Position numbers and translations under genes: made by a program. Below, one piece after another: positions 4,383-23,455 of a stretch of DNA of 32,382 bases. Position 1 is the stretch's first letter. The number at the start of each line of letters is the position of its first letter. Location of the stretch: the NCBI GenBank assembly GCA_035620395.1, contig DASPGW010000193.1, positions 1 through 32,382 of the forward strand. The letters run 5' to 3'. Under the pieces are notes generated by a model. It worked only from the letters and a program-made list of their open reading frames with translations, made no database searches and had not been told where the DNA came from. This stretch comes from Desulfuromonadales bacterium (lineage in GTDB: Bacteria; Desulfobacterota; Desulfuromonadia; Desulfuromonadales; DASPGW01).

Positions 4383-5588
4383 ATGCCACACTTCAGAGAT
4401 GCCAAGCGGACCCTCAGCCTGGAAAGACGCGAATATCCGATCAAGATGCAGCACGCCTATCCTTCCGTCAATATCGGCTGGGGTGCCCATACGATGGTCG
4501 GCAACGATGCCAAGGCGCTCGGCATGACCAATGCCCTGATCATCACCACCGGCCTCAAGGGGACCGGCATCATCGAGGCCATCCAGGGGGTTCTGAAGCA
4601 CGCCGGGGTTGCCTCGGAGGTCTTTGACAAGGCCACCCCCAATCCCAAGGATTACGAGGTCATGGAAGGCGCCAAGGTTCTGGCCTCCGGCAAGTTCGAC
4701 GGCATCGTCAGCGTCGGCGGCGGCAGCACCACCGACTGCGCCAAGGCGATCAAGCTGGTCTACAGCCATGACGGCCAGGACGTCCGCAGCTTCGAGGGAG
4801 CCTTCAAGGCGACCAAGAAAAACAAGATTCCCCAGCTTGCCATCAACACCACCTCGGGTACCGGTTCCGAGGTCTCCTGCTTCTCGATCATCAACCATAC
4901 CGAGAAGATGTACAAGATGGCCCTTTTCGACCCCAACTGCACCCCGAGCAAGTCGGTCAACGACCCGCTCCTCCACCAGTGCATGAGCCAGGAACTGGCG
5001 GCCTACACCGGCATGGACGCCCTGACCCACGCGGTGGAAGCGATCGCCTCCCGCCTCTGCGTGCAGTCGGCCTACGGCCCCGGCCTCTGGGCGATCACCG
5101 AGATCTTCAACAATCTGCGCCAGTCGGCCAACAACCGGAACAACGAGAAGGCCATCGAGCAGATGGTCTGGGCCGAAATGGCCGCCGCCTACAGCTTCAA
5201 CAGCGCCGGCCTCGGCATCGTCCACAGCATGGCGCACGCCATGGGCGGCCTCTACGACTCCCCGCACGGCCTCTGCAACGCCATCGCCCTGGTCGACGTC
5301 TGCCGCCTCAACCTGCCGGCCTGCCCCGAGCGCTTCGCCATGATGGCCCGCGCCGCCGGCATCAACACCAACGGCATCTCCGACATGAAGGCCGGCGAGC
5401 TGTTCATCGACATGATCCAGGAACTCAAGGACGACCTGGGCATCACCACCAAGTTCGGTGACCTCGGCCTGAAGGAAAAAGACCTCGACGGCCTGGCCAA
5501 GTTCGCCGCGGCCGATATCTGCTCCGAGGGCAACCCTGTCGATATCGGCTTCGACAACATGCGCGCCGTTTTCAAGGGCTGCATGTAA
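4383..5588 (+). CDS. iron-containing alcohol dehydrogenase, methanol/NDMA-dependent type
   Basis: This 401-residue group III Fe-ADH oxidises a primary alcohol to the aldehyde with a nicotinamide cofactor in the cytoplasm. The N-terminal Rossmann half has the nucleotide motif SVGGGSTTDCAKA (about 108-120) and TTSGTGSE. The C-terminal half carries the metal ligands Asp212 and His216 (GMDALTHAVEA), His281 (VHSMAH) and His295 (DSPHGLC). Length and motifs fit the group with methanol:NDMA oxidoreductase (Mdo/ThcE) and Bacillus methanol dehydrogenase. In actinobacteria, members of that group hold NAD(P)H tightly and depend on mycofactocin. The ATG follows a strong GAGGAGG. The gene is monocistronic: sigma-54 promoter upstream, strong terminator downstream. 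The mft operon 7.6 kb downstream with a matching promoter supports mycofactocin dependence, but that and the substrate are inferred; a plain NAD-linked ADH is the alternative. Confidence 0.93.
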   Translation: MPHFRDAKRTLSLERREYPIKMQHAYPSVNIGWGAHTMVGNDAKALGMTNALIITTGLKGTGIIEAIQGVLKHAGVASEVFDKATPNPKDYEVMEGAKVLASGKFDGIVSVGGGSTTDCAKAIKLVYSHDGQDVRSFEGAFKATKKNKIPQLAINTTSGTGSEVSCFSIINHTEKMYKMALFDPNCTPSKSVNDPLLHQCMSQELAAYTGMDALTHAVEAIASRLCVQSAYGPGLWAITEIFNNLRQSANNRNNEKAIEQMVWAEMAAAYSFNSAGLGIVHSMAHAMGGLYDSPHGLCNAIALVDVCRLNLPACPERFAMMARAAGINTNGISDMKAGELFIDMIQELKDDLGITTKFGDLGLKEKDLDGLAKFAAADICSEGNPVDIGFDNMRAVFKGCM

Positions 5589-5620
5589 TTCGTGCTAGAA
5601 TATAAGATAAGCTGAGATGA

Positions 5621-5667
5621 AAAGCCGCTGGCCTCCGGGATTCGATTCCCGGCGCCAGCGGCTTTTT
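5621..5667 (+). terminator. intrinsic terminator after the alcohol dehydrogenase
   Basis: AAAGCCGCTGGC (5621-5632) pairs perfectly with GCCAGCGGCTTT (5654-5665), enclosing an inner hairpin CCGGGA/TCCCGG (5635-5640/5647-5652), and the stem runs into TTTTT. It lies 33 bp after the stop codon. Confidence 0.9.
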
Positions 5668-5729
5668 CACCTGGAAACAAACACGGTGCAGAAAGCCGAT
5701 CTGCAGTATCCCAGCGATTCGAGGTGGAA

Positions 5730-6632
5730 ATGATGACCGAACAGAATGTAAGGGAGCTCCTTCGTACCGGGGGCTACATTGCCGATGAAGCCATTGCGAC
5801 TGCCGTTTTTCTGGCCCTGCGGATGGAGAAGCCGATCCTGATCGAAGGACCACCCGGAGTGGGTAAGACCGGTCTTGCCAAAACACTTTCTGCGGTCATG
5901 GATTTTCCTCTCGTGCGTTTGCAGTGTTACGAAGGGATCGATGAAGGCAAGGCCCTCTACGATTGGGAATACGGCAAACAGCTGCTCTATACCCAGATGC
6001 TGCGCACCCAGCTCGACACGCATCTTAGCGCCGCTTCCAGTCTGCGTGACGCCGTTGAACAGTTGGCCAGCGAGGAGAGTCTGTTCTTTTCCCAGAATTT
6101 TCTGGTTCAGCGGCCCATCCTGCGCAGTTTCCTGTCGGAGAAGCGGTCGGTGCTGCTGATCGATGAAATCGACCGTTCAGACGATGAATTCGAAGCGCTG
6201 CTGCTGGAGTGCCTCAGCGATTTTCAGGTTTCCATCCCGGAGCTTGGCGTCATCGTTGCCAACAACAAACCGCTGGCGATCCTGACCAGCAACGGCACGC
6301 GGATGATTTCCGACGCGCTGCGGCGGCGTTGTCTCTACCTCTATATCGATTACCCGGAGCTGGAACGCGAGGTGCAGATCGTTCGTGCCCGCTTTCCTGA
6401 GATCTGTGATGAGCTGGCGCACCAGATGGTCGGTTTTCTGCGCAAAGCCCGCGAACTGAATCTGCGCAAACCACCCAGCGTCTCCGAAACCCTGGACTGG
6501 GCCGAAGTCCTGTCGATTCTGCATGTGGCGAGGTTGACGCCGGCAGTCGTGGCCAACACGGTCGGCGTAATCTCCAAGCATCAGGCCGACTTGCAGAAGG
6601 TGGTGGAACTGGCCACTGCGGAACTGACCTGA
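5730..6632 (+). CDS. MoxR-family AAA+ ATPase
   Basis: This roughly 300-residue AAA+ ATPase has Walker A GPPGVGKT (about 40-47), Walker B LLIDEIDRSDDEFE and sensor 1 ILTSNGTR. MoxR ATPases act as chaperones with a VWA partner and help assemble or activate metal-containing enzymes and complexes (methanol dehydrogenase, CO dehydrogenase CoxD/CoxE). Here the VWA partner starts 2 bp after the stop, so the two are one operon. I choose ATG at 5730, 6 bp after GAGG (5721-5724); an in-frame GTG at 5724 falls inside that ribosome-binding site, and ATG 5733 is also possible. The position next to an iron alcohol dehydrogenase and a tungsten enzyme locus makes a metalloenzyme-activating role plausible but unproven. 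Confidence 0.9.
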   Translation: MMTEQNVRELLRTGGYIADEAIATAVFLALRMEKPILIEGPPGVGKTGLAKTLSAVMDFPLVRLQCYEGIDEGKALYDWEYGKQLLYTQMLRTQLDTHLSAASSLRDAVEQLASEESLFFSQNFLVQRPILRSFLSEKRSVLLIDEIDRSDDEFEALLLECLSDFQVSIPELGVIVANNKPLAILTSNGTRMISDALRRRCLYLYIDYPELEREVQIVRARFPEICDELAHQMVGFLRKARELNLRKPPSVSETLDWAEVLSILHVARLTPAVVANTVGVISKHQADLQKVVELATAELT

Positions 6633-6634
6633 GC

Positions 6635-8026
6635 ATGGAGACCATCATCACCAGATTTGTCGCCGACCTGAGAAAGGAAGGGCTGCGCGTCTCCCCGGGA
6701 GAGAGCCTCGATGCAGTTTGCGCCCTGGCTTACGGCGGGCTCGAAGGGCGCGGTTCGGTACGCGCCCTGCTGCGTTTGACGCTGGTGAAGAATGTCCACG
6801 ATATCCCGCGCTTCAATAAGGTCTTTGACCGGTTCTTCAGAAAGTATCCGGAGGGGATGGGGGTCGATCCTGCCGATCTGCTGCATGAGGCCATCATCAG
6901 CATGGAAGGGGAAGAGATGCTCGGCACCAACCCGGAAATGGTCAATGAGAACATGTCCCTGGCGATGGTTGATGCCGGCCTGAGCCCCGAAGATCTGAAA
7001 GATCTGCAATCGCTCAAAGAGATCCCCCTGGACCAGCTTGACGGCTCGGAGATCGAGATTCGGCTGAAAGGTTACCAACGGGCGATGGAGGCTCCCAGGC
7101 CGTCGATGCGGATGCCGCAAAATCCGGTCACCATGGCCTTTAAACCGCCGGCGGGGCAGCAGCGTGACCTGACTTTTTCCCAGGAGGAACTTGATGCGAT
7201 GCAGGATGCCGTGTCCCGCATGATCCTGCGCCTGAAAAAGGATATCCGGCGCGTCAAAAACAAGGAGAATCGCGGCAAAATCCACGTCATCCGAACCATT
7301 CAGAAGAATTATCGCAACGGGATGGTCCCCTTTTTGCTGGAATTGCGCCGTAAGCGCAAACAGAAACCGCGCCTGGTTGTTCTTTGCGATGTCAGCTTTT
7401 CCGTCAGTCACGCCTCGCAGTTCATGCTGCTCCTGCTGCATACCCTGCATAATCGTTTGATGGATGTCCGCAGCTTCATCTTCAACGCGGAGTTGGCGGA
7501 AATCACCGAAATGCTCTCGAACTCCCCGATCAATACCATGATGGAAGTCATCGACAGCGGGGCGATCGTTAATCTGGACGACAACAGTGATTACGGCAAA
7601 GTTTTCCTGACCTTCAAAGAGAAATATCTCGAAAACCTGCGCGGCCGACCGGCGGTGATATTTCTCGGCGATGCCCGCAATAACTACAACAAGGCCAACG
7701 ACTGGGTGCTCGAGCAGGTTCGCGAGAAGGCCGGCTACATGCTCTGGTTGACTCCGGAGGATCGCTCCTTGTGGAAGAGGGGAGATTGCCTGATCGAAAC
7801 CTATGGCGCCTGGTGCGACAAGGTCGAGTTTGTCAAGAATGTCGAAGAGTTGAATGTGATTGTCGAGGACCTGTTTCGCAACATCTATCTGGAGGATGAG
7901 CACCGCTCCATGCGGTCGATCAACAAGGCCGAAGAAGATCAGGGATACGATTATCGCGATTATTACACGCGGGGCGGCAGCCGTTCGGAGCCAGGTTTTG
8001 ACCCGGAGGGTCGTAGTCACTGGTGA
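6635..8026 (+). CDS. VWA domain (CoxE-like) protein, MoxR partner
   Basis: This 463-residue soluble protein has a von Willebrand A domain in its C-terminal half. The metal-ion-dependent adhesion site is DVSFSVS (about residue 250, DxSxS), and FLGDARNN lies further on as the Asp-containing MIDAS loop. The helical N-terminal region fits the CoxE-like/DUF58-related family. With the MoxR ATPase immediately upstream (2-bp gap) it forms the usual ATPase/VWA pair that remodels a client protein. The C-terminal tail is Arg/Tyr-rich (YDYRDYYTRGG). No signal peptide or membrane helix is evident, so it should be cytoplasmic. The client is unknown. Confidence 0.88.
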   Translation: METIITRFVADLRKEGLRVSPGESLDAVCALAYGGLEGRGSVRALLRLTLVKNVHDIPRFNKVFDRFFRKYPEGMGVDPADLLHEAIISMEGEEMLGTNPEMVNENMSLAMVDAGLSPEDLKDLQSLKEIPLDQLDGSEIEIRLKGYQRAMEAPRPSMRMPQNPVTMAFKPPAGQQRDLTFSQEELDAMQDAVSRMILRLKKDIRRVKNKENRGKIHVIRTIQKNYRNGMVPFLLELRRKRKQKPRLVVLCDVSFSVSHASQFMLLLLHTLHNRLMDVRSFIFNAELAEITEMLSNSPINTMMEVIDSGAIVNLDDNSDYGKVFLTFKEKYLENLRGRPAVIFLGDARNNYNKANDWVLEQVREKAGYMLWLTPEDRSLWKRGDCLIETYGAWCDKVEFVKNVEELNVIVEDLFRNIYLEDEHRSMRSINKAEEDQGYDYRDYYTRGGSRSEPGFDPEGRSHW

Positions 8027-8062
8027 CCGAAGCGACGGGAACTCAATTCAGAGGGAAATGCT

Positions 8063-9970
<1,908 letters not shown>

Positions 9971-10006
9971 CGAGGTCACCGCACGCAGGGCAATTCCCCG
10001 GAATAA

Positions 10007-10165
10007 ACCGACGGTGTCGTCGTGCCGGCCACCAGCCTGGACCTCCCCTTCGCCCGGAAGCGCTGGTGCACGGCTGCGGGCATCGACCGGATCAATACCC
10101 TCTCCGACTACCAACAACACCCCCTTGCTCGCGTCTGCGGGGTGCTGAGCAAAGAGTTGACAAGT
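10007..10165 (+). pseudogene. remnant of a thiol peroxidase (Tpx) gene
   Basis: In one frame the sequence reads VVVPATSLDLPFARKRWC, then GIDRINTLSDY, then GVLSKEL. This matches the order and spacing of the C-terminal half of Tpx, including the DLPFAxxRxC motif with the resolving Cys. The N-terminal half with the peroxidatic Cys is absent, a stop codon (10004-10006) sits just upstream, and after SKEL the expected LLARAVFVVD stretch is lost. It is therefore a decayed fragment. The frame stays open to about 10285 without recognisable similarity. I compared from memory of the family, not by database search. Confidence 0.7.
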
Positions 10166-10222
10166 CTTTTCCCTGTTTCTTCCTCGCCCGCATCCTGGGT
10201 GGCGAGGCACTCTGGCGCATCC

Positions 10223-12921: not shown

Positions 12922-12957
12922 TGTAGACAAGCTCCCCACTGGGGAGAAAGTCTACAG
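12922..12957 (+). promoter_or_regulatory. compound palindrome upstream of mftA (candidate activator site 1)
   Basis: TGTAGAC (12922-12928) pairs with GTCTACA (12950-12956) and encloses a second inverted repeat CTCCCC-ACT-GGGGAG (12932-12946). Within it, CTGGGGAGAAAGTCTACAG (12939-12957) aligns with the palindrome at 4006-4024 before the alcohol dehydrogenase. Its centre is about 140 bp upstream of the mft -24 element. Confidence 0.5.
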
Positions 12958-12966
12958 TTGGCCGGG

Positions 12967-13085: not shown

Positions 13086-13100
13086 TGGCACCAGCGTTGC
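13086..13100 (+). promoter_or_regulatory. sigma-54 (-24/-12) promoter of the mycofactocin operon
   Basis: TGGCACCAGCGTTGC followed by A is a perfect match to the RpoN consensus, with GG at 13087-13088, ten bases, then GC at 13099-13100. Transcription would begin about 55 bp before the mftA start codon. No competing sigma-70 promoter stands out. Confidence 0.88.
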
Positions 13101-13166
13101 AATGTATAGAGACCTAAGGCGCATCGTCAACGGATGCCGAAAATGAACCTCAAAAGGAGAGAGCAC

Positions 13167-13280
13167 ATGGAAACGGAAAAAAATCAGGCAATCGAAGAAG
13201 CATGTAACGAAGAGCCCCGGATCCTGGAGGAAATTCAGGTCGAAGAGCTCGCAATCGACGGCATCTGCGGGGTGTACTGA
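13167..13280 (+). CDS. mftA: mycofactocin precursor peptide MftA
   Basis: This 37-residue peptide ends in EELAIDGICGVY, the hallmark C-terminus of MftA (IDG-x-CGVY). In the known pathway MftC oxidatively decarboxylates the last Tyr and cross-links it to the penultimate Val; the Val-Tyr-derived core is later released and becomes the redox cofactor mycofactocin. The acidic N-terminal part (METEKNQAIEEACNEE) is the leader recognised by MftB. An internal Cys at residue 13 is in addition to the conserved one in CGVY. The ATG follows AAAAGGAGAG with good spacing. mftB begins 1 bp after the stop. The identity is clear from the C-terminal motif and the neighbours. Confidence 0.96.
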   Translation: METEKNQAIEEACNEEPRILEEIQVEELAIDGICGVY

Positions 13281-13281
13281 G

Positions 13282-13539
13282 ATGGCGGCGGCAGGCATCC
13301 GGCTGCATCCCGCCTGCCGCGTCAGGCAAGAGGGGTTCGGCCTCCTGTTTTACGATTCCAGGGGGCCGCGCCTTCTCTTCGCCGAAACCGGCAGACTGCT
13401 TTCCACCGATTTCTTCGCCACCGTCCGGAGCCTGGACGACCTCCCTGCCGGGCTGTCGGAGCAGGAGCAGCGAATTTTGAAGAAATTTCTGTCGCAACTT
13501 CTGGAAAAGGGATTTCTCCGTGAGCAATCGATTTGTTGA
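13282..13539 (+). CDS. mftB: mycofactocin peptide chaperone MftB (PqqD-like)
   Basis: This 85-residue protein matches the small PqqD-like RiPP recognition element that binds the MftA leader and presents it to MftC. Visible family traits are the N-terminal VRQEGFGLLFYDSRGPRLLF beta-strand pair, SEQEQRILKKFLSQLLEKGFL as the recognition helices, and the position between mftA and mftC. It starts with ATG 1 bp after mftA, and its 3' end overlaps mftC by 20 bp, consistent with translational coupling. Confidence 0.93.
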   Translation: MAAAGIRLHPACRVRQEGFGLLFYDSRGPRLLFAETGRLLSTDFFATVRSLDDLPAGLSEQEQRILKKFLSQLLEKGFLREQSIC

Positions 13540-14623: not shown

Positions 14624-16585
14624 ATGATGTTCCAATACCTGTTTTCGCCCCTCAAGATCGGCACGGTCGAGGTGAAGAACCGCATATCCTTCCAGCCGCA
14701 CCTGACCAATCTGGCGGTGGACAATCTTCCCAGCGAACGCCAGATGTACTACTGGGGCGAGCGGGCCAAAGGGGGCGCCGGCCTCATCATCACCGAAGAG
14801 ATGAGTGTGCACCCCACGGACATGGCTTACGACAAGCTGATCGACGTCTATCATTCCGAGGTTATCCCCGGCTTCAAGAAGATCACCGATTACGTCCATC
14901 AGTTCGACTCCAAAATCTTCGCCCAGCTCAACCACAACGGCCAGCAGTGCGACGGCAGCAACTCCAGACTGCCGGTCTGGGCTCCCTCGCCGATGCCCGA
15001 CGTCCTTTTCCGCGAAACCCCCAAGGAGATGGAACCCGAGGACATCGAAGAGGTGGCCCGCTACTTCGCCAAGAGCGCCATTCACGTGCGGGAGGGGGGC
15101 TTCGACGGCATCGAGCTGCAGTTCGGCCACTCCAGCCTCGCCCGGCAGTTCCTCTCCCCCCTGACCAACTTCCGCTCGGACGAGTACGGCGGCAGCCTGG
15201 AAAACCGGATGCGGGCGCCCCTGAAGTTTATCTCCGCGGTGCGCAAGGCGGCGGGCAAAGACTTTACGGTCGGCATCCGGATGTGCGCCGACGAGATGAT
15301 CCCGGGCGGGCTCGACCTGGGCCAGGTCCAGGAGATCTGCGCCCGCTTCGAGGCGAGCGGCCTCATCGACTTCATGGATCTCTCCATCGCCACCTTCTAC
15401 AACCTCTACCTGGTCGAAGGCTCCATGCATACCCCGCTCGGCTATACCATTCCGCTGGCGGCCGGCATCCGGGAGAAGATCAAGCTGCCCGTCTTCTGCA
15501 CCGGCCGGATCAACGACCCGGTCATGGCCGAGAAAGTCCTCGCCAATGGCCAGGCCGACATGATCGGCATGTGCCGCGGCCTGATCTGCGACCCCTTCAT
15601 GCCGAAGAAGGCGTTCGAGGGGCGGCTGGACGACATCCGCTACTGTGTGGCTGACAACCAGGGGTGCATCGGCCGCATCGGGATGAACAAGACCCTCGGC
15701 TGCATCCAGAATCCGGCCATCGGGCGGGAGAAGGAGTGGGGTGAAGGGACCCTCGAAAAGGCGGCGGTAAAGAAGAAGGTGACGATCGTCGGCGGCGGCC
15801 CGGGCGGCATGTGGGCGGCGAAGATGGCCGGCCGCCGCGGCCACCAGGTGACCCTCTACGACCGCAACGAAACCCTCGGCGGCCAGGTGCTGACCGCCAT
15901 GAAAGGGGCGGGGCGGGACGAATTCGGTGTCATCATCCGCAACGAGAAGGGGCAGGTGGAAAAGACCGGCGCTAACGTCAAGCTGGGTGTCGAAGTGACC
16001 ACCGAACAGGTGCTGGCGGAAAAGCCGGACGTGGTGATCATCGCTACCGGCAGCGTCCCCAAGGAGCATCCGGTCGGCGGGGCCGACGGCCCGGCGGTCT
16101 GGAATGTCTGGCAGGTGCTGAACGGCGAGGCGCAGTTGGGGGAAAAGGTCTGCCTGATCGACTATGACGGCCACCACCGGGCCACCGCCACGGCCGAGTA
16201 CCTGGCCAACCTGGGGAAAACGGTGCACATCATCACCTCCAGCCTCTTCATCGGCGCCGAACTGGGGCCGACCCAGGACCTCTACCTGACCAGGCAGCGG
16301 CTCCTGCAGAAGGGGGCCACTTTCACCCCGGATATCGCCGTGATGGAAGTTGCGGGCGAAGCCGGCGCCAAAACTGTCAAGGGGTTCAACGTCTATTCGA
16401 ACGTCTGGGATGAGTGGGGGCCGTTCGACACCATCGTGCTTGCCATGGGGCAGCGCGTGGAGGACGCCCTCTACATGAGCCTGAAGGGGAAGGTGAAGGA
16501 GCTCTACCGGATCGGCGACAGCGTCGCCCCGCGCAAGGTCGACATGGCCATCTGGGAAGGGCACCGGATCGGGAGGGAGATCTGA
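14624..16585 (+). CDS. OYE/FadH-family flavin oxidoreductase, mycofactocin-associated
   Basis: This 653-residue protein has the architecture of 2,4-dienoyl-CoA reductase FadH / trimethylamine dehydrogenase: an N-terminal FMN TIM barrel (about 1-340; FLSPLTNFRSDEYGGSLENR), a short Fe-S segment, then FAD and NAD(P)-binding folds (VTIVGGGPGGMWAA; later VCLIDYDGHH). The Fe-S segment has C341, D344, C348 and C360 in the exact C-x2-C-x3-C-x11-C spacing of FadH, with the second Cys replaced by Asp. The barrel motif HxxHGYL is changed to QFGHSSL, so dienoyl-CoA reductase chemistry is doubtful. OYE-type proteins are known companions of mycofactocin genes (TIGRFAM lists mycofactocin FadH/OYE families). 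The following EtfA, FixC, FixX and EtfB genes suggest it moves electrons between mycofactocin and an ETF. The ATG-ATG start has CAGGAG upstream. The stop overlaps the next ATG. Confidence 0.9.
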   Translation: MMFQYLFSPLKIGTVEVKNRISFQPHLTNLAVDNLPSERQMYYWGERAKGGAGLIITEEMSVHPTDMAYDKLIDVYHSEVIPGFKKITDYVHQFDSKIFAQLNHNGQQCDGSNSRLPVWAPSPMPDVLFRETPKEMEPEDIEEVARYFAKSAIHVREGGFDGIELQFGHSSLARQFLSPLTNFRSDEYGGSLENRMRAPLKFISAVRKAAGKDFTVGIRMCADEMIPGGLDLGQVQEICARFEASGLIDFMDLSIATFYNLYLVEGSMHTPLGYTIPLAAGIREKIKLPVFCTGRINDPVMAEKVLANGQADMIGMCRGLICDPFMPKKAFEGRLDDIRYCVADNQGCIGRIGMNKTLGCIQNPAIGREKEWGEGTLEKAAVKKKVTIVGGGPGGMWAAKMAGRRGHQVTLYDRNETLGGQVLTAMKGAGRDEFGVIIRNEKGQVEKTGANVKLGVEVTTEQVLAEKPDVVIIATGSVPKEHPVGGADGPAVWNVWQVLNGEAQLGEKVCLIDYDGHHRATATAEYLANLGKTVHIITSSLFIGAELGPTQDLYLTRQRLLQKGATFTPDIAVMEVAGEAGAKTVKGFNVYSNVWDEWGPFDTIVLAMGQRVEDALYMSLKGKVKELYRIGDSVAPRKVDMAIWEGHRIGREI

Positions 16586-17580
16586 TGGCCGGCAAAATCC
16601 TCGTTTTTGTCGACCTGCCCGACGGCGAGCTCGACGAGACCGGGCGGGGTCTGCTCTCCTACGGGTCGCGCCTGGCCGGCATTCTCGGCTCCCCCTGGGA
16701 AGTCGTCACCCCCATCGTTTGCAGCGGCGAACAGATGGCCGGGTTCGGAGCCTACGGCGTGCCGGCGATCACCCGCGTCGACGGCGGCAGTCTCCTCGAT
16801 ACCCCGGCGCTTCTCGGCCAAACCCTGGCCGCCCTGGCGGCGGCGAATGGGGCGACTCTCTTTGTTCTGCCCCACAATGCCCTGGGCGCGACCCTGGCTC
16901 CGGTGATTGCCGCGACCCTCGATGCCGCCATTCTCACCGAAATAGTCACCGCCAGCCACGATGCCGACGGCCTGCGGATTGCCCGGCAGGCCCTGGGCGG
17001 ACGGGTAGCGGAGACGAAGGTGTGGGACGGCTCCCGTCCCCTCGTCGTCACCGTTCCGACCCGTTGCCTGAGCCAGGTGCTCATGCCGACCGTCCGCCCC
17101 AGCACGCCGGCGGTGGAAACCTGGCGTCCCGCCGCCATGCCGGCCGAGGCTGCGGCGCGGGTTACCGGCCGCATTCCGCCCGATCCCCAGACCGTCGACC
17201 TCACCGAGGCGGAAGTCATCTTCAGCGCCGGCAAGGGGTGCGACGCGGTGACCTTCGACATGCTCAAGGAACTTTGCCGACTGCTCAACGTCTCCTTCGG
17301 CGTCACCCGGCCCGTGTACGACCTGGGGTGGACCGGCTTCGAGCGGATGGTCGGACAGACCGGCCGTACCGTCACCCCCCGGTTTTACCTGGCCCTCGGC
17401 ATCTCCGGTTCCATGCACCATGTGGGGGGGATCAAGGACTCCCGGCGGATCGTGGCGGTCAACAACGATGCCAAGGCCCCCATCTTTCCCAACGCCGACG
17501 AGGGGTTCGTCGCCGACCTGAAGGAGGTGCTGCCGCACCTGCTGGCGCGGGCAAAGTCGGCCATCGGAGGTGCGCCATGA
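16585..17580 (+). CDS. electron transfer flavoprotein alpha subunit (EtfA/FixB-like)
   Basis: This 331-residue protein has the C-terminal EtfA FAD-binding domain: a YDLGW element, MVGQTGRTVTP, LGISGSMHHVGG (family usual GISGAxQH), VNNDAKAPIFPNAD and a final ADLKEVLPHL. The N-terminal domain is a weaker ETF fold. ETF alpha/beta dimers pass electrons between dehydrogenases and a quinone oxidoreductase, and FixAB types may bifurcate. The ATG overlaps the OYE stop (ATGA), so the two are translationally coupled, and fixC overlaps its end in the same way. Its partner beta subunit is at 19243, separated by fixC and fixX. Confidence 0.93.
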   Translation: MAGKILVFVDLPDGELDETGRGLLSYGSRLAGILGSPWEVVTPIVCSGEQMAGFGAYGVPAITRVDGGSLLDTPALLGQTLAALAAANGATLFVLPHNALGATLAPVIAATLDAAILTEIVTASHDADGLRIARQALGGRVAETKVWDGSRPLVVTVPTRCLSQVLMPTVRPSTPAVETWRPAAMPAEAAARVTGRIPPDPQTVDLTEAEVIFSAGKGCDAVTFDMLKELCRLLNVSFGVTRPVYDLGWTGFERMVGQTGRTVTPRFYLALGISGSMHHVGGIKDSRRIVAVNNDAKAPIFPNADEGFVADLKEVLPHLLARAKSAIGGAP

Positions 17581-18872
17581 GCAAGTCGTATCAGGCAATC
17601 GTCGTCGGGGCCGGGCCGGCCGGATCCTCCGCAGCCCTGACCATGGCCAGGGCCGGGCTGGAGGTGGCGCTGGTCGAGCGGGGCACCTTCCCCGGCGAAA
17701 AGAACATGTTCGGCGGAGTCCTGCACCGGCTCCCCGCCCTGGAGGAGGTCTTCCCCGACTTTTGGGATCGGGCGCCGCTGGAGCGGCACATCGTCAAGAA
17801 GGGCGTCACCTTCATGACCGGCGACTCCAGCTTCAGCACGCTGATCGAAGCGGGGAACTTCGACCGCACTCCCTACAACGGCTACACCGTTTTCCGGCCG
17901 CGTTTCGACCGCTGGCTCGCCGATGAGGCGGTCAAGGCCGGCGCCACCCTCATCACCAGCGCCACGGTGGAAGATGTGGTCACCCGGGGCGGCCGGGTCG
18001 CCGGTGTCAGCATCCTCGACCGGGGAGAGTTGGCCGCTCCGGTGGTGGTCGCCGCCGACGGCGTCCTCTCCTTCACCGCCCTCAAGGCGGGGCTGCGGCG
18101 GCCGACCTTCGACCCGGCGCAGATGGCGGTCGGCATCAAGGCGCTGATCGACATGCCGCGGGAAGTGATCGACGACCGCTTCGGTCTGGTCCGCGATCAG
18201 GGTTACGCCGGCGAGTTCGTCGGCTGCACCGGCGGCGTTCGGGGGGGCGGCTTCCTCTACACCAACTACGACTCCCTCTCCATTGGCCTGGTCTTCCACC
18301 TGGCCAGCCTGCGGGTAAGCGGCAAGACCCCCTACGACCTGCTCAACGAATTTCTCGAGCAGCCCCAGGTCGCCAAGCTGGTTCGCGGCGGGCGGCTTCA
18401 GGAGTATTCGGCCCACCTGATTCCCGAGGGAGGATTTGACATGATCCCCGAGCTGGTCGGCGACGGTATTCTCGTCACCGGCGATGCCGCCGCCCTCTGC
18501 AATGCCACCGGGGTCAATCTGGAGGGGATCAACCTGGCGACCCAGTCGGGTGTCCTGGCCGGCCAGGCGGTAATCGCCGCCCAACAGGCGGGGGACTTCA
18601 GCCGCAAGGGGCTGGAGGAGTACCGGCGGTTGATGAACGACAGCTATGTGATCAAGGACCTCAAGCTGTACCGCAAGGCGCCGCACATGCTGCACAACGA
18701 CCGCATCTACAACGAGTATCCGGAGCTCATAACGAGCGTCATGGAACAGATCTACAGCATAGACGGAGCTCCCAAGGAGAGCTTGTCCAAGCTGTTCCTG
18801 AAGACGGCCCGGGAGAAGGTGGGCCTGGCGAACATCCTGTCCGACGCCTTCGGCGCCTGGAGAGCTGTATGA
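17577..18872 (+). CDS. FixC-like ETF:quinone oxidoreductase flavoprotein
   Basis: This 431-residue FAD protein starts with a dinucleotide-binding motif (AIVVGAGPAGSSAALTMARA). The second FAD motif GILVTGDAAALCNATGVNLE includes the conserved GD. It lacks the C-terminal ferredoxin domain of full-length ETF-QO, and that domain is encoded separately by the next gene, exactly the FixC/FixX split. FixC accepts electrons from FixAB and passes them toward quinone. No transmembrane helix is evident; membrane attachment would be peripheral. It overlaps both neighbours by 4 bp (ATGA). Confidence 0.93.
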   Translation: MSKSYQAIVVGAGPAGSSAALTMARAGLEVALVERGTFPGEKNMFGGVLHRLPALEEVFPDFWDRAPLERHIVKKGVTFMTGDSSFSTLIEAGNFDRTPYNGYTVFRPRFDRWLADEAVKAGATLITSATVEDVVTRGGRVAGVSILDRGELAAPVVVAADGVLSFTALKAGLRRPTFDPAQMAVGIKALIDMPREVIDDRFGLVRDQGYAGEFVGCTGGVRGGGFLYTNYDSLSIGLVFHLASLRVSGKTPYDLLNEFLEQPQVAKLVRGGRLQEYSAHLIPEGGFDMIPELVGDGILVTGDAAALCNATGVNLEGINLATQSGVLAGQAVIAAQQAGDFSRKGLEEYRRLMNDSYVIKDLKLYRKAPHMLHNDRIYNEYPELITSVMEQIYSIDGAPKESLSKLFLKTAREKVGLANILSDAFGAWRAV

Positions 18873-19147
18873 ACATCGACGAGATCTTCGACTTCACCAG
18901 CTTCAGCATCGACCGTGAACCGCACATCGTCCTCGACACCCAGGTCTGCGTCGGCTGCGACAACCGCGGCTGCGTCAACTCCTGTCCGGCCCGCTGCTAC
19001 ACCTGGAGCGAGGCGGAGCAGAAGATGACCTTCGTCTACGACGGCTGCCTCGAATGCGGCACCTGCTATGTCGTCTGCCACCGCAAGGCCTTCACCCGCT
19101 GGCGCTATCCGCGGGGGGGCTTCGGGGTGGCGTATAGGATGACCTGA
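18869..19147 (+). CDS. FixX-like ferredoxin
   Basis: This 92-residue protein has CVGCDNRGCVNSCPARC followed by CLECGTCYVVC and the family C-terminus WRYPRGGFGVAYRM. The second group (C-x2-C-x2-C-x3-C) is a classical 4Fe-4S motif, and the first group supplies more potential ligands. FixX is the ferredoxin partner of FixC, carrying electrons toward quinone. It is coupled to fixC by a 4-bp overlap. Confidence 0.93.
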   Translation: MNIDEIFDFTSFSIDREPHIVLDTQVCVGCDNRGCVNSCPARCYTWSEAEQKMTFVYDGCLECGTCYVVCHRKAFTRWRYPRGGFGVAYRMT

Positions 19148-19172
19148 AAAACAAGGTTGAAGGCTGAATTAT

Positions 19173-19216
19173 GAAGGATGAAAGCAGGCCTGCTTTTTTT
19201 CATTCATTCATCCTTC
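19173..19216 (+). repeat. inverted repeat with T-run between fixX and fixA
   Basis: GAAGGATGAA (19173-19182) is the reverse complement of TTCATCCTTC (19207-19216). The core AGCAGGCCTGCT (19183-19194) is self-complementary and runs into seven Ts (to 19200), so it could act as a weak terminator or pause site. A further copy TTCATCCTT sits at 19221-19229, and the left side is flanked by a similar GAAGGCTGAA, giving the look of a small dispersed repeat. It interrupts an otherwise tightly coupled operon. Confidence 0.6.
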
Positions 19217-19242
19217 CGACTTCATCCTTAAGGAGTAAAAAC

Positions 19243-20136
19243 ATGCCCAACAATAACCTCGATATCCTCGTCCTCCTCCGTGAGACCGCCGATCCCCGTC
19301 CCCCCGCCGGCATCCTCACGCGGGGCGCCGGCATCAGCGAGCGGGGGCTGCGGCGTCTGCCGAATCCGGCGGACCTGGCGGCCCTGGAGGAGGCCCTCTG
19401 TCTCAAGGACACGCTCGGTGCCCGGGTGACGGTGGTTGCCGTCGGTCCCGCCCGGCTCGACGACACCCTGCGGCTCGCTTTCGCCATGGGGGTGGACCGG
19501 GGGATCCGGTTCTGGGACCACGGCCTGGATGGGGGCGATGCCCTGGTCGATGCGCGCATCCTCGCCCGGATCATGACCATTCTCTCTCCTACCCTTGTCT
19601 TCACCGGCAACCGGCTGACGGACCGGGGAGACGACCCGGCGCCGGCCCTGGCCGCTGCGGTGCTGGGCATGCCGTGCATCGCCGCCACCGTCTCGCTCAC
19701 GCTCAAGCAGGCAGGTGTCGAAGCGCTGCGCAAGGCGGACCGGGGCGCCCGGCAGTCGGTTGCGGCGCCGTTCCCCTGCACGGTCCTCTTCGAGGAGGAG
19801 AAAGTGCCACGATACCCCTCCATCGAGGCGGTCATCAAATCCCTGCTGGCGCCCGTCGAGGAATGGGTGCTGGCGGACCTGGGTCTCCCCTTCTGGGAGG
19901 TGGGCGCCACGGGTGCCAGTCTCACGACGGCGGAGTTCGGTCTTCCCCGCCCCGACCCGGTCCGGGTCGTGACTCCGGATCCGCAGCTACCCGCCTTCGA
20001 GCGGATACTCTCCCTGCTCTCCGGCGGGATCAAGGCCCGCGAGGGGAGGATGCACTCTCTCTCGGCCGAGGAGACGGCCGCGGGGCTCTGGAAGATTTTC
20101 TGCGAGGAGGGTCTGGCCCCGGGAGGAACCTCATGA
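19243..20136 (+). CDS. electron transfer flavoprotein beta subunit (EtfB/FixA-like)
   Basis: This 297-residue protein begins MPNNNLDILVLLRETADPRP, with the EtfB pattern of a conserved N-terminal strand, NPADLAALEEAL (NxxDxxAxEEAL) and VTVVAVGPARLDDTLRLAFAMG. FTGNRLTDRGDDPAPALAA is the counterpart of the nucleotide-binding GxxxxDxxxxQxGP region, with the usual Q/GP partly altered. It is longer than common EtfB (about 255 residues). It would pair with the EtfA-like protein at 16585. ATG follows TTAAGGAGT. It overlaps mftF by 4 bp. Whether it is a bifurcating type cannot be decided by eye. Confidence 0.88.
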   Translation: MPNNNLDILVLLRETADPRPPAGILTRGAGISERGLRRLPNPADLAALEEALCLKDTLGARVTVVAVGPARLDDTLRLAFAMGVDRGIRFWDHGLDGGDALVDARILARIMTILSPTLVFTGNRLTDRGDDPAPALAAAVLGMPCIAATVSLTLKQAGVEALRKADRGARQSVAAPFPCTVLFEEEKVPRYPSIEAVIKSLLAPVEEWVLADLGLPFWEVGATGASLTTAEFGLPRPDPVRVVTPDPQLPAFERILSLLSGGIKAREGRMHSLSAEETAAGLWKIFCEEGLAPGGTS

Positions 20137-21566
20137 CCTACCGTCTGGCAGAGCACGTGGAACTGGTGGAGCGGGAGGGGGCAAGCTACCTGGTGGCCAA
20201 GACCCCTCTCTGCGCTCTGCGCCTGAACGGTTCGCTGGCGGAGCTCGTCAGGCGCGGGCTGGCCGGGCCGCTGACGCCCGCCTCCGCCGCTGAAACCAAG
20301 GTCCTCGAGCAGTTGGTCGCCAAAGGGTTCGTGGAACGGATCCGCAGCCTGGCCGAACAGCCGGCGGCACTTCCCACCGTCAGTGTCGTCATCCCGGTCA
20401 AGGACCGGGCGGAGGAGCTCGCCCGCTGCCTCGCTTCCCTCGCCCGGCTCGACTATCCGCAGGAGAAGCTCCAGGTCATCGTCGTCGACGACGGCAGCCG
20501 CGACGAATCGGCGCTGGTGGCCCGCCAGGCCGGCGCGCTCGTCATCCCCTCGGGGGGGACGGGGCGAGGGCCGGCGGCGGCGCGCAACGTCGGCGCATCC
20601 GTCGCGACCGGGGAGGTCCTCGCCTTCATCGATTCCGACTGCAGCGCCTCGGCGGGGTGGCTCGCCGAGTTGATCCCCGCCTTTGCCGATCCGCTCATGG
20701 TGGCCGTCGGCGGGCGGGTGGACGGCATGTGTACCGCTTCCGCCGTCGACCGCTACGAGGCGGTCATGTCGAGCCTCACCCTCGGTTCGCGGGAGCGTAC
20801 GGGCAGCGGCGGAAACGACACCTTCTACCTGCCCAGCTGCAACCTGCTGGTGCGGCGGCCAGCCTTTCTGGCGGCCCGCGGCTTCGACGACAGCATGCAC
20901 GTGGGGGAGGATGTCGACCTGACCTGGCGCCTGCGGGACGCCGGCTGGACCATCGCCTATCTGCCGGTGGGAGGGGTTCTGCACGAGCACCGCAGCACAG
21001 TCCGCTCCTTCATGTCCCGCCGTTTCGACTACGGCACCTCCGAGGGGCAGCTTCAGGTCCTGCATCCCCAGCGCCGCAAGCGGCTGGTCATCCCCCCCTT
21101 GCTGGCCCTCGTGCTGGCTCTTTGTCTTCTGGCTCCGTTGGCGGCGTGGTGGCCGCTGCTGCCGGCCGCAGGACTGCTCGCAGCCGACGCGGTAGTGGTC
21201 CGGCTGCGGATTGCCCGCCGGGGACTCCCCATCGGCCTGCCGGCCTTGCTCGCCGGGCGCCTGCGGGCCCTAGGCAGCCTGGTCTACTATCTCTGCTACC
21301 ACTTGGTGCGCTACTACGCCGCCGTACTCATCGCCATCGCGCTGGCCCTTCCCCCGTTCTGGGCGGTGTTCGTCGGTGCTCTGGGGGTTGCCGCCGGCGT
21401 CGATTATGCGGTGAAAAAGCCGCGTCTCTCCTTCGTCCGTTTCGCCGGCATCTATCTGCTGGAGCAGGTTGCCTACGGAGCCGGCGTCTTCTGGGGGTGC
21501 CTGCGGCGGAAAACCTTTGCCTCCTACCGGGTGCTCATCCTCCGGCAGGCGGAGCTTTCGGTTTAA
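20133..21566 (+). CDS. mftF: mycofactocin glycosyltransferase MftF
   Basis: This 477-residue protein has a PqqD-like N-terminal segment of about 80 residues (LVEREGASYLVAKTPLCALR). A GT2 catalytic domain follows with VSVVIPVKDRAEELARCL, IVVDDGSRDES, IDSDCSAS (DxD-like) and GEDVDLTWRLRDAGW (the ED and Q/RxxRW-like region). A C-terminal hydrophobic region has several membrane helices (about 305-450). MftF adds beta-1,4-glucose units to mycofactocin in mycobacteria. It is the last gene of the tightly coupled block, and its ATG overlaps the EtfB stop. The frame stays open much further upstream, but the 20133 start is fixed by coupling and by the domain boundary. The TAA is followed closely by the AOR riboswitch, with no terminator seen between. 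Confidence 0.9.
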   Translation: MTYRLAEHVELVEREGASYLVAKTPLCALRLNGSLAELVRRGLAGPLTPASAAETKVLEQLVAKGFVERIRSLAEQPAALPTVSVVIPVKDRAEELARCLASLARLDYPQEKLQVIVVDDGSRDESALVARQAGALVIPSGGTGRGPAAARNVGASVATGEVLAFIDSDCSASAGWLAELIPAFADPLMVAVGGRVDGMCTASAVDRYEAVMSSLTLGSRERTGSGGNDTFYLPSCNLLVRRPAFLAARGFDDSMHVGEDVDLTWRLRDAGWTIAYLPVGGVLHEHRSTVRSFMSRRFDYGTSEGQLQVLHPQRRKRLVIPPLLALVLALCLLAPLAAWWPLLPAAGLLAADAVVVRLRIARRGLPIGLPALLAGRLRALGSLVYYLCYHLVRYYAAVLIAIALALPPFWAVFVGALGVAAGVDYAVKKPRLSFVRFAGIYLLEQVAYGAGVFWGCLRRKTFASYRVLILRQAELSV

Positions 21567-21584
21567 GATCAAGAAAATTTAAAC

Positions 21585-21677
21585 ATCTCCGAGTCTGCGC
21601 GCCTACAGGAATATCCCACGGTGACAGGCCAACGGGTTCTGCCGGAAACGGCAGGGCCTCCCTGGCGGAAAGGAGAT
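21585..21677 (+). ncRNA. Moco/Tuco-type riboswitch upstream of the AOR gene
   Basis: The outer stem ATCTCC (21585-21590) pairs with GGAGAT (21672-21677), starting with the conserved TCTCCGAG. A central four-base stem AGGC/GCCT is followed by GGCCAACGGGTT, a hairpin CTGCC-GGAAAC-GGCAG closed by GGCC, then CTCCC and GGAAAGGAG. These are the conserved blocks of the Moco RNA motif. A near-copy precedes the moeA cluster. The 3' strand of the outer stem runs straight into TTTTTT (21677-21682), so the closed form could promote termination. Placement before a tungsten-type AOR points to a tungsten-cofactor response, which is inference. Confidence 0.88.
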
Positions 21678-21718
21678 TTTTTCAGCCACAATCAAGCGGG
21701 AAAGGAGAAACAAAGGGT

Positions 21719-23455
21719 ATGGACAAGATTGCCAGAATCAACATGGGCGCGGCAGGCGGCCCGAAGGTGACGGTTGAGGACGTCGGTGAATATGCCGGAC
21801 TCGGCGGCCGGGCACTGACCTCCCTGCTCATCGCCAAGGAAGTACACCCCCTCTGCCATGCGCTGGGCGCCGAGAACAAGCTGGTCATCGCCCCCGGCAT
21901 GCTGAGCGGTACCGCCGGCGCCATGACCGGCCGGCTGTCGGTGGGGTGCAAGAGCCCGCTGACCGGCACCATCAAGGAGTCCAACGCCGGCGGCCAGGCG
22001 GCGCAGGTTATGGCACGGATAGGCTATGCCGCCATCGTCCTCGAGGGGAAACCGGAAGGCGACGACCTCTACAAGATCTACGTCAACAAGGATGGCATCC
22101 ACGTCATCGTCGACAACAGCCTGAAGGACCTCGACAACTACCCGGTCATCGAGAAGCTGCGCAAGGAGTACGGTGACAAGGTCGCCTACATGTCGATCGG
22201 CACCGCCGGCGAGCGCAAGCTGCTGGCGGCCTCCATCGCCTGCACCGACCCGGAACTGCGGCCGACCCGGCACTGCGGCCGTGGCGGCGTGGGCGCCGTC
22301 ATGGGCGCCAAGCGGGTCAAGGCGATCATCCTCGACGACGCCGGGATGAAGATGCGCCCGCCGAAAGACCCGGAGAAGTACCGGGACGCCAACCGCAAGT
22401 TCGTCGAGGGGCTGCGCAAGCACCCGGTCACCGGCGAGGGCCTGCCCGCCTACGGCACCAACATCCTGACCAACGTGCTGAACGAGGCGGGCGGCTACCC
22501 CAGCTACAACTTCAAGCAGGGACAATTCGCCGGCTCTTCCAATATCAGTGGCGAGTCCCAGGCGGCGCTGGAAGTCAAGCGCGGCGGCAGCGCCACCCAC
22601 GGCTGCCATCGCGGCTGCGTCATCCAGTGCTCCGGCATCTACAACGACAAGGACGGCCACTACCTGACCAAGCAGCCGGAGTACGAGACGGTCTGGTCGC
22701 ATGGCGGCCACTGCGGCATCGACGACCTCGACACCATCGCCCACCTCGACTTCCTGGACGACAACATCGGCCTCGATACCATCGAAATGGGGGTCACCAT
22801 CGGCGTCGCCATGGACGCGGGAATTATCAAGTTCGGCGACCGCGAGGGGGCCATCCGCCTGATGGAGGAAGTCGGCAAGGGGACGCCGCTCGGCCGCATC
22901 CTCGGCAGCGGCGCCGCGGTGACCGGCAAGGTGTTCGGCGTCGAGCGGGTACCGGTGGTCAAGGACCAGGCCCTGCCCGCCTACGACCCGCGCGCCATCC
23001 AGGGGATCGGCGTCACCTACGCCACCACCACCATGGGGGCCGACCATACCGCTGGCTACGCCATCGCCACCAACATCCTCAAGGTCGGCGGCGACGTCGA
23101 TCCGCTGAAGACCGAAGGCCAGGTCGAGCTCTCCCGCAACCTGCAGATCGCCACCGCCGCCATCGACTCGACCGGCATGTGCCTCTTCATCGCCTTCGCC
23201 ATTATGGACCAGCCGGAGACTTTCCAGGCGCTGCTCGACATGCTCGGTTCCTTCTACGGCATCACCATGACCGGCGACGACGTGGTGGCGCTGGGCAAGC
23301 GGGTTCTCGCCGCAGAGCGGGACTTCAACACCCGCGCCGGTTTCACCAAGCATCACGACCGGCTCCCCCGTTTCTTCTACAACGAGCCGATTGCGCCCCA
23401 CAACGTCACGTTCATGATGAAGGATGAGGAGCTGGACGAGGTCTTCAACTTCTAG
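21719..23455 (+). CDS. aldehyde:ferredoxin oxidoreductase (AOR family, tungsten-type)
   Basis: This 578-residue AOR-family enzyme has the N-terminal pterin-binding domain (GLGGRALTSLL, PGMLSGTAGAMTGRLSVGCKSPLTGT, SNAGGQ). The 4Fe-4S ligands are C296, C300 and C304 (CHRGCVIQC) plus C488 (STGMCLF). The spacing of the first pair is C-x3-C rather than the C-x2-C of Pyrococcus AOR. It would oxidise aldehydes to acids, or reduce acids, with ferredoxin, using a tungsten bis-pterin. It sits behind a Moco/Tuco riboswitch and upstream of MoaD, E1, MoeA and TupA genes. ATG 21719 follows GGAG; a strong terminator follows the stop. Coupling to the alcohol dehydrogenase (alcohol to aldehyde to acid) is inferred from context. 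Confidence 0.95.
   Translation: MDKIARINMGAAGGPKVTVEDVGEYAGLGGRALTSLLIAKEVHPLCHALGAENKLVIAPGMLSGTAGAMTGRLSVGCKSPLTGTIKESNAGGQAAQVMARIGYAAIVLEGKPEGDDLYKIYVNKDGIHVIVDNSLKDLDNYPVIEKLRKEYGDKVAYMSIGTAGERKLLAASIACTDPELRPTRHCGRGGVGAVMGAKRVKAIILDDAGMKMRPPKDPEKYRDANRKFVEGLRKHPVTGEGLPAYGTNILTNVLNEAGGYPSYNFKQGQFAGSSNISGESQAALEVKRGGSATHGCHRGCVIQCSGIYNDKDGHYLTKQPEYETVWSHGGHCGIDDLDTIAHLDFLDDNIGLDTIEMGVTIGVAMDAGIIKFGDREGAIRLMEEVGKGTPLGRILGSGAAVTGKVFGVERVPVVKDQALPAYDPRAIQGIGVTYATTTMGADHTAGYAIATNILKVGGDVDPLKTEGQVELSRNLQIATAAIDSTGMCLFIAFAIMDQPETFQALLDMLGSFYGITMTGDDVVALGKRVLAAERDFNTRAGFTKHHDRLPRFFYNEPIAPHNVTFMMKDEELDEVFNF

Follow-up and report, generated by a model that had tools for sequence, protein, structure and literature searches.

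Among described systems, the locus reported here stands closest to the actinobacterial mycofactocin (mft) clusters of the type mftABCDEFG, represented by Mycobacterium smegmatis, Tsukamurella (L181) and Streptomyces NBC_00080 (L182). In M. smegmatis, according to one study, MftD carries out the oxidative deamination of AHDP to premycofactocin (PMFT); PMFT and mycofactocin (MFT) were abolished without mftD, and their amounts were only reduced without mftE (PMC7491314). A 2025 paper on MftG puts the share of MftC genomes without MftG at about 25% and leaves the replacement open (PMC11778925). Mycofactocin together with iron-containing alcohol dehydrogenases (Fe-ADHs) was noted in 2011 for Geobacter uraniireducens and Geobacter M18 (Haft 2011, PMC3023750), and a methanol cluster with mycofactocin in G. 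pickeringii was proposed in 2015 to serve methanol oxidation (PMC4358379). The present locus lies on a contig of 32,382 nucleotides (DASPGW010000193.1, C193) from the 3.3 Mb draft genome, 95.8% complete, of a Desulfuromonadales bacterium; the entire contig was analysed and is called the window below. Between mftC and mftF it holds a five-gene cassette encoding an OYE-family protein (OYE2), the two subunits of an electron transfer flavoprotein (ETF; EtfA and EtfB) and FixC- and FixX-like proteins. Judged from genes alone, we consider it rather probable that this cassette marks a second type of mycofactocin system, in which it replaces MftD and probably MftG.

Like the actinobacterial clusters, the window has mftA, mftB, mftC and mftF above the family cut-offs as well as a linked alcohol dehydrogenase; unlike them, it lacks mftD, mftE and mftG by cut-off and has the cassette. 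With the Geobacter clusters it shares mycofactocin genes accompanied by Fe-ADH genes, although those accounts, as far as their available text goes, give no role to OYE, ETF or FixCX and mention neither an aldehyde:ferredoxin oxidoreductase (AOR) nor an exchange of mftD (PMC3023750, PMC4358379). The names of three NCBIfam families, mycofact_OYE_2 (TIGR03997), mft_etfA (NF038209) and mft_etfB (TIGR04503), already tie OYE2 and the ETF subunits to mycofactocin, and the OYE2 of the window passes its cut-off; however, its EtfA and EtfB fall below theirs, FixC and FixX bear no mft name, and the names come without a function. The Geobacter association and these family names were thus already known. 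In the literature searched, which did not cover key mycofactocin reviews, no paper joined mycofactocin with electron transfer flavoprotein or aldehyde ferredoxin oxidoreductase, or MftD with FixC, and cassette genomes that lack MftG and also MftD were not found in print.

The five-gene cassette in the mft operon

The plus strand of the window carries two blocks. Block 1, led by the Fe-ADH, continues with a MadB-like AAA ATPase, a MadC-like VWA protein and a multi-PAS kinase, while block 2 is the mft operon, in the order mftA-mftB-mftC-OYE2-EtfA-FixC-FixX-EtfB-mftF (Table 1). AOR begins 152 bp beyond mftF. Downstream of it come genes for two uncharacterised proteins, one MoeB/ThiF protein and three proteins of the MoeA type, and the contig closes with a TupA-like gene, which scores below its cut-off and is the only pointer here to tungsten, not molybdenum, as the metal of AOR. 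A prediction made earlier from the letters of this DNA (the original prediction) had seen here a candidate route from alcohol to acid with mycofactocin, Fe-ADH, OYE, ETF, FixCX and AOR. Pfam and NCBIfam profiles found every gene that it named, with two corrections: the Fe-ADH belongs to a separate block, 7.6 kb upstream of mftA, and the 932-residue frame taken for AOR, which opens at 20657, overlaps mftF, the true AOR being shorter. Within the operon, OYE2 and EtfA overlap by 1 base, and EtfA/FixC, FixC/FixX and EtfB/MftF by 4 bases each, so that the cassette is integral to it. Among named genomes, the nearest MftC was found in Geobacteraceae metagenome-assembled genomes (MAGs), at 88% identity.

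An MftA with a Val-Tyr end, together with MftB, MftC and MftF, all above curated cut-offs, indicates mycofactocin biosynthesis. None of the window proteins scanned against NCBIfam matched the mftD, mftE or mftG models. In the window's own draft genome, the best MftD score (TIGR03966) was 19.1 bits against a cut-off of 470.85; the MftE model (TIGR03964) reached 126.3 bits (cut-off 172) with a creatininase-family protein outside the locus, and the search for MftG gave no GMC_oxred_N match at E 1e-15. MftE was above cut-off in 0/22 genomes of the order, 17 of which had a weaker creatininase-family match. A GMC search that took in 45 of the mft-positive genomes then collected found no protein above the MftG cut-off in them, and six with a GMC protein at E 1e-15; three of these proteins were choline dehydrogenases above cut-off (295–323 bits on the MftG model, cut-off 387), one was nearest to cholesterol oxidase, and two, searched as matched pieces of 184 and 223 residues, gave no match. 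Two plasmid MftG proteins, serving as positive controls, passed an MftG cut-off. No relative was found among the viral contigs scanned with MftC. Since mftABC and mftF occur here without MftD, either a substitute is needed or a different product is made.

The survey of the order covered 136 genomes, grouped by MftC alone into 20 with MftC above cut-off and 116 without. OYE2 was above cut-off in 18 of the former and in two of the latter (Fisher p 3e-18, uncorrected for kinship); of these two, one has its OYE2 on a contig that carries an mftC tail (G042, L129), and the contig of the other begins 234 bp before OYE2 (G065). An MftC profile search of genome contigs yielded 71 loci, 70 of them with MftC. 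Where a locus extended 1.2 kb or more past mftC, OYE2 came next in 58 of 65 cases; where it extended 6.5 kb or more, the complete order OYE2-EtfA-FixC-FixX-EtfB-MftF was found in 44 of 49, a count in which L087 figures as failing though its neighbourhood shows all genes. The conserved loci span Geobacter-like genomes, Anaeromyxobacter (L108, with L113 from a related MAG) and Chloroflexota (L119, L120, L123, L124), whose MftC and that of the window share only about 50% identity. AOR lay within 12 kb downstream in 28/37 loci and on the opposite side of mft in L108 and L113; in a Desulfobacteraceae MAG (L116), AOR and Fe-ADH immediately follow mftF. These positions favour a functional tie between AOR and mycofactocin. 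A lack of conserved linkage in related genomes would, by its own terms, have spoken against the original prediction; the neighbourhood comparison that it had proposed shows this linkage to be conserved.

The same cassette occurs farther afield. Five Streptomyces plasmids (L176, L177, L184-L186) carry mftABC-OYE1-OYE2-etfA-FixC-FixX-etfB with mftE and without mftD (in L186, OYE2 is unannotated and was matched in two pieces), and two haloarchaea have the cassette beside mftABC and a glycosyltransferase, likewise without mftD. The haloarchaeal OYE is 38–39% identical to that of the window, as are plasmid OYEs without MftC, e.g., in Shinella (38%); it was assigned as the cassette OYE because of its position before EtfA-FixC-FixX. 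Streptomyces and haloarchaea are aerobes, and the route can no longer be called specific to anaerobes, as had been proposed. Tsukamurella and Streptomyces NBC_00080 have mftABCDEF with mftG, and Thermomicrobium and M. chubuense have mftD with no mftG listed; the genus Streptomyces thus contains both the cassette and the MftD kinds. The cassette clusters of Streptomyces and Haloterrigena keep mftE, and the cassette therefore corresponds to MftD (and MftG), not to MftE. Three of the Streptomyces plasmids (L184-L186) have an annotated mycofactocin-coupled SDR in addition, and several of the plasmid mft clusters adjoin polyketide or other secondary-metabolism genes.

Near-exclusion of the cassette and MftD

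Cassette and mftD were near-exclusive alternatives, with exceptions in G124 and G172. Among the 20 MftC-positive genomes of the order, 17 had the cassette only, two MftD only, one both and none neither (Fisher p 0.016). MftD was above cut-off in three of them (G083, G087 and G124), and it is precisely G083 and G087 that lack OYE2 above cut-off among the MftC-positive genomes. MftD was found in 0/50 further mft-positive genomes, a search that took in 50 of 55 loci (L114, L127, L129, L130 and L131 left out). The 12 plasmid records with MftC divided into eight with the cassette and four with MftD, with none having both or neither (p 0.002). The plasmid counts cover plasmid sequences, not chromosomes, with 11 regions inspected and the S. 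lavendulae region left out; the plasmids from S. lavendulae and S. yangpuensis have similar scores and are maybe near copies, in which case the 12 plasmids are 11.

The genomes G086 and G087, sisters on the MftC tree (SH-aLRT 99), show the exchange at close range. The only large difference between their operons is the 5.5 kb cassette of G086, in place of which G087 has about 95 bp, and DNA identity is about 84–87% on either cassette flank. Further upstream, the two differ by an indel of about 1.4 kb and some weaker stretches. The MftD of G087 is encoded on the same contig as its mft locus.

Cassette proteins and the weighing of readings

By sequence, predicted model and fold search, OYE2 is a member of the group that combines an FMN barrel, an Fe-S cluster and an FAD/ADP-type domain. 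Among solved structures, naphthoyl-CoA and dienoyl-CoA reductase resemble it most in sequence, followed by trimethylamine and histamine dehydrogenases. When normalised by query length, the TM-scores of the predicted model (pLDDT 77.5) were highest against trimethylamine and histamine dehydrogenase (0.81 each, a full-length match; 0.76 for naphthoyl-CoA reductase), whereas naphthoyl-CoA reductase came top of the fold search by E-value and by Z (36.5 vs 34.9, 34.8 and 34.0); as these measures rank different relatives first, the fold alone does not decide between them. The GxGxxG motif for NAD(P)H is missing from the second nucleotide site in 69/69 homologues (duplicate genomes were removed from this count and from those of 54 for FixX and 52 for EtfB), a feature that sets OYE2 apart from dienoyl-CoA reductase and that it shares with the ETF-linked amine dehydrogenases. 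Candidate active-site residues are H26, H104, E164, D223 and E224, all invariant, and H169 and Y262, which are nearly so. From sequence and model, OYE2 looks like an ETF-reducing dehydrogenase with an active site of its own. One of its four Fe-S cysteine ligands is an aspartate in the window (15644-15703, residues 341-360), a 3Cys-1Asp cluster variant; this position was Asp in 27 and Cys in 50 of 77 aligned rows, window and duplicate genomes included.

The solved EtfB nearest to that of the window is the partner of trimethylamine dehydrogenase (1o94_C, 92.8 bits; next 71.4). EtfA is nearest to other ETFs, namely 5ol2_A (111.5 bits) and 6fah_A (107.3), which we take to be EtfA from bifurcating complexes, with the trimethylamine dehydrogenase ETF at 88.1 bits. 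As in FixABCX, FixC- and FixX-like genes adjoin the ETF genes; in contrast to FixABCX, the ETF subunits best match mft or other ETF models, and FixC and FixX score below their cut-offs. ETF:quinone oxidoreductases and FixX have one cluster, whereas the FixX-like protein has two full cysteine motifs, C-x2-C-x4-C-x3-CP and C-x2-C-x2-C-x3-C, both present in 54/54 homologues and hinting at two clusters. The GDTAQVGP-type stretch of aligned bifurcating ETFs was matched by 0/52 EtfB, two Chloroflexota proteins (L119, L124) retaining a related ...VGP stretch. In the MftG paper, the PMFT couple lies at about -255 mV and menaquinone at -74 mV (PMC11778925), so that flow to quinone would be downhill and bifurcation unneeded.

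In the best reading of these data, the cassette would be a dehydrogenase module that is linked to quinone and has mycofactocin itself as its substrate. MftA, MftB and MftC would make the cyclised core, a peptidase would release it (a candidate being the creatininase-family protein encoded outside the locus), and MftF would glycosylate it. Ring carbon 3 carries an amino group (NH2) in AHDP and a hydroxyl group (OH) in reduced mycofactocin, and one enzyme could therefore in principle oxidise both. OYE2 would take two electrons from this carbon, converting the amine to a ketone in maturation and the alcohol to a ketone in each catalytic cycle, and the electrons would go via ETF to FixC/FixX and then to the quinone pool. 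Using bound NAD, the Fe-ADH would oxidise a small alcohol; mycofactocin would accept the electrons, and AOR would oxidise the resulting aldehyde with ferredoxin as acceptor. The electron direction given in the original prediction, from reduced mycofactocin through OYE to ETF/FixCX, is plausible; with mftD absent and the cassette in its place, the role of the cassette may also include making the redox centre of the cofactor, besides or instead of re-oxidation alone. If the best reading is true, neither MftD nor MftG would be required for producing and recycling mycofactocin, and its electrons would pass directly to quinone. The presence of the cofactor in Geobacter, Dehalococcoidia and other organisms with an oxygen-free life would then be easier to understand. 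The cassette, conserved across several bacterial phyla and two haloarchaea, is a concrete candidate for the replacement of MftG. The more sweeping statement, that nature holds two interchangeable mycofactocin systems and that in the second, in anaerobes, streptomycetes and archaea alike, a single dehydrogenase of the OYE family, linked to ETF, oxidises one and the same ring carbon in making and in use, replacing MftD and MftG, is put forward tentatively, as a possibility with the odds somewhat against it.

Two narrower explanations divide these roles. Were the cassette concerned with re-oxidation only, OYE2-ETF-FixCX would be a mycofactocinol:quinone oxidoreductase replacing MftG, and an unrelated enzyme would perform the MftD step. 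ETF with FixCX suits a high catabolic flux, the 45 mft-positive genomes had no protein above the MftG cut-off, and the gap left for about a quarter of MftC genomes (PMC11778925) would be filled. Such a role offers no explanation for the loss of MftD, and the near-exclusion is with MftD, not with MftG, since G083 and G087 have MftD but lack both the cassette and a GMC protein; the cassette therefore tracks MftD better than MftG, and we regard re-oxidation alone as unlikely. Conversely, a cassette for maturation only would stand in for MftD without being its homologue and form the keto group, with something else re-oxidising mycofactocin. Its position directly after mftC (after OYE1 in Streptomyces), which is that of mftD in Tsukamurella and Streptomyces NBC_00080, would agree with this, as would the exclusion of MftD, the absence of MftG also from the MftD-only genomes and the fold that OYE2 has in common with ETF-linked amine dehydrogenases. 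But five proteins and a quinone link would then serve a step needed in trace amounts, and the cassette genomes tested lack MftG; maturation alone seems to us distinctly improbable. The remaining two alternatives change the chemistry. OYE2 might be a reductase acting on another substrate, its link to mft being indirect, as its sequence-closest solved relatives and the lead of naphthoyl-CoA reductase in the fold search would suggest; the NAD(P)H motif absent from every homologue, the scarcity of OYE2 in MftC-negative genomes (two of 116, one with an mftC tail) and the overlap of the ETF and FixCX genes with OYE2 in one operon make this very hard to accept. Bifurcation of electrons by the ETF module to ferredoxin and quinone, as in FixABCX, would be in keeping with the FixC- and FixX-like partners, with ferredoxin being used also by AOR and with the nearest solved EtfA structures. 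The EtfB evidence, from both the missing stretch and the trimethylamine dehydrogenase-type relative, is the reason why it is rated low, and with a downhill path to quinone we give it almost no credence.

Several observations weigh against the replacement of MftD and MftG by the cassette as set out above. G124 has MftD and the cassette together; its MftD is present as two 93% identical copies on short contigs (C264 and C130; L139, L140) of a draft with 7% contamination. Anaeromyxobacter RBG_16_69_14 (G172, L109), outside the order, shows neither. G087 encodes a 462-bit OYE2-like protein elsewhere, below cut-off, and both MftD-only genomes, G083 and G087, have no GMC protein as well as no cassette. 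On the MftC tree, MftD changed independently five times; the cassette changed oppositely in four of these cases, in the same direction in none and showed no difference in one (sign test p 0.125), and five pairs cannot reach 0.05. This is a quick tree with long-branch warnings, in which rows were cassette-positive by default unless set by hand, L114 was scored MftD-negative without a search, L117, L118 and L121 were scored on partial or below-cut-off OYE2 matches and L112 on its sister locus L111. Trimethylamine dehydrogenase has a flavin-linking Cys30 and a catalytic Tyr169, and OYE2 lacks both in the alignment. Its nearest solved relatives by sequence are reductases, and an ETF with a quinone reductase seems heavy for a biosynthesis step alone. 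Finally, AOR of the window's type (at least 75% identity), present in 12/20 MftC-positive genomes, also occurs in 10/116 MftC-negative ones, which rules it out as an obligatory part; AOR is therefore a frequent partner of the route, not a core part.

Alcohol dehydrogenase, promoters and neighbouring genes

The Fe-ADH had been described as of the methanol/NDMA type, but it scored 301 bits on TIGR04266 (NDMA-dependent methanol dehydrogenase), for which the cut-off is 625, and is thereby excluded from that family. At E 1e-100, TIGR04266 was found in 0/20 genomes, in a search in which no positive control matched either. At the stretch singled out as an NAD contact of mycofactocin-linked Fe-ADHs, TSNPKDYEVH (Haft 2011, PMC3023750), the window protein has TPNPKDYEVM; a 1,3-propanediol oxidoreductase (3bfj) for which no mycofactocin is known reads NPKDTNV there, and such a stretch alone therefore proves little. 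Copies of the Fe-ADH, 75–96% identical, were found in 22/136 genomes of the order, i.e., in 17/20 with MftC and 5/116 without (Fisher p 1e-14, kinship uncorrected). Two of these five have OYE2 (G042, G065), one has a 763-bit piece of OYE2 at a contig edge (G070), and two (G003, G011) are real exceptions as far as seen. On sequence grounds, the Fe-ADH belongs to the mycofactocin system despite its distance from mftA.

The sigma-54 consensus pattern is matched perfectly at only two places in the window, one upstream of the Fe-ADH and the other upstream of mftA. With up to one mismatch, the mftA site recurred in 50/57 homologous upstream regions, against a shuffled rate of 0.006, the seven without it being L104, L108, L111, L112, L113, L118 and L128. 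The Fe-ADH site recurred, on the same terms, in 9/9 close homologues whose upstream sequence reached 331 bp or more and in 0/17 more distant Fe-ADHs of the same loci. With one mismatch allowed, 0.9 chance matches are expected in the window and two or more arose in 24/100 window shuffles; the sigma-54 claim therefore rests on the perfect match, the placement and the recurrence in relatives. A sigma-54 activator and a kinase are encoded at the left end of the window, and joint activation of the Fe-ADH block and the mft operon from these predicted promoters is probable. The linkage of genes, the common promoter type and the co-occurrence of Fe-ADH with MftC support the candidate alcohol-to-acid locus of the original prediction, which thus held in part: the locus and its linkage stood, AOR was kept as a frequent partner, the anaerobe-specific and methanol/NDMA attributes did not stand, and the bifurcating one was not supported. 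A strong dyad, TGTAGAC...CTCCCCACTGGGGAG...GTCTACA, lies at 12922-12956, about 164 bp upstream of the mft sigma-54 site, and a GGGGA-centred dyad lies upstream of the Fe-ADH site; both are possible activator sites. GTAGAC half-sites upstream of mft were only mildly enriched (15/50 vs 0.106 shuffled), and no control element is claimed for them.

Table 1. Predicted features of the window, with strand and supporting match (scores in bits).
Feature	Position	Strand	Evidence
Sensor histidine kinase (PAS, HisKA, HATPase)	136..1158	+	Pfam; homologue near Fe-ADH in three further loci
NtrC-type response regulator with sigma-54 activation domain	1179..2519	+	Pfam Response_reg, Sigma54_activat, HTH_8; frame opens at 669, receiver domain from ~1179
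Radical SAM protein	2682..3782	+	Over no cut-off among 25 NCBIfam matches listed
Sigma-54 site before Fe-ADH	4173..4188	+	Pattern search, perfect match
Iron-containing alcohol dehydrogenase with NPKDYEV stretch	4383..5588	+	Pfam ADH_Fe_C/Fe-ADH above cut-off
MadB-like AAA ATPase	5724..6632	+	NF047784 305, cut-off 475
MadC-like VWA (CoxE-type) protein	6635..8026	+	PF05762; NF047783 151, cut-off 600
Multi-PAS sensor kinase	8063..9970	+	Pfam; kept beside mft in relatives
Sigma-54 site before mftA	13086..13101	+	Pattern search, perfect match
mftA precursor, C-terminus ...ELAIDGICGVY	13170..13280	+	TIGR03969 43.3, cut-off 25; variant model NF040489 47, cut-off 30
mftB	13282..13539	+	TIGR03967 64.2, cut-off 33
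mftC radical SAM maturase	13520..14560	+	TIGR03962 351.5, cut-off 265
OYE2 (FMN barrel, Fe-S, FAD/ADP domain), first cassette gene	14624..16585	+	TIGR03997 mycofact_OYE_2 974.7, cut-off 793.15
EtfA	16585..17580	+	PF00766; best match NF038209 (mft_etfA) 136, below cut-off 240
FixC-like flavoprotein, candidate ETF:quinone oxidoreductase	17577..18872	+	PRK10157 363, cut-off 610
FixX-like ferredoxin, two full Cys motifs	18869..19147	+	Best NCBIfam match FixX, 61, cut-off 166
EtfB	19171..20136 (start may be ~19243)	+	PF01012; best match TIGR04503 (mft_etfB) 78, below cut-off 200
mftF glycosyltransferase	20133..21566	+	TIGR03965 378.5, cut-off 280
Aldehyde:ferredoxin oxidoreductase (AOR)	~21719..23455	+	PF02730, PF01314 (AFOR_N, AFOR_C above cut-off)
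Small conserved protein	23494..23775	+	71-73% homologues in four further loci
Conserved protein after AOR in relatives	23822..24457	+	Neighbourhood comparison
MoeB/ThiF-family adenylyltransferase	24438..25505	+	PF00899
Three MoeA-family genes, third fused to PBP domain	25629..30152	+	PRK14498 722, cut-off 534
TupA-like tungstate-binding protein	31438..32355	+	PF12849; NF041772 250, cut-off 400

Between the Fe-ADH and mftA lie the AAA, VWA and PAS kinase genes of block 1, followed by HD and LOG/HAD genes and a reverse-strand Nudix gene; the HD and LOG/HAD genes were rejected as parts of the system, as only one other locus has them. The protein at 23822-24457 has a conserved AMPGLVGATMRRGG stretch, and its predicted model (pLDDT 84.5) has two alpha-beta halves and is weakly MoaD/TGS-like, with no match in the PDB at E 0.001 or better. 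The lone radical SAM protein (2682-3782) is weakly MftC-like (108 bits, cut-off 265), and the relatives L065, L067, L106, L108 and L113 have one before the Fe-ADH or after mftF. The AAA ATPase and VWA pair (5724-8026) also stands beside mycofactocin dehydrogenase genes in the haloarchaeal mft loci L178 (4272-7446) and L183 (19919-23043), and is possibly an activation pair for the dehydrogenases.

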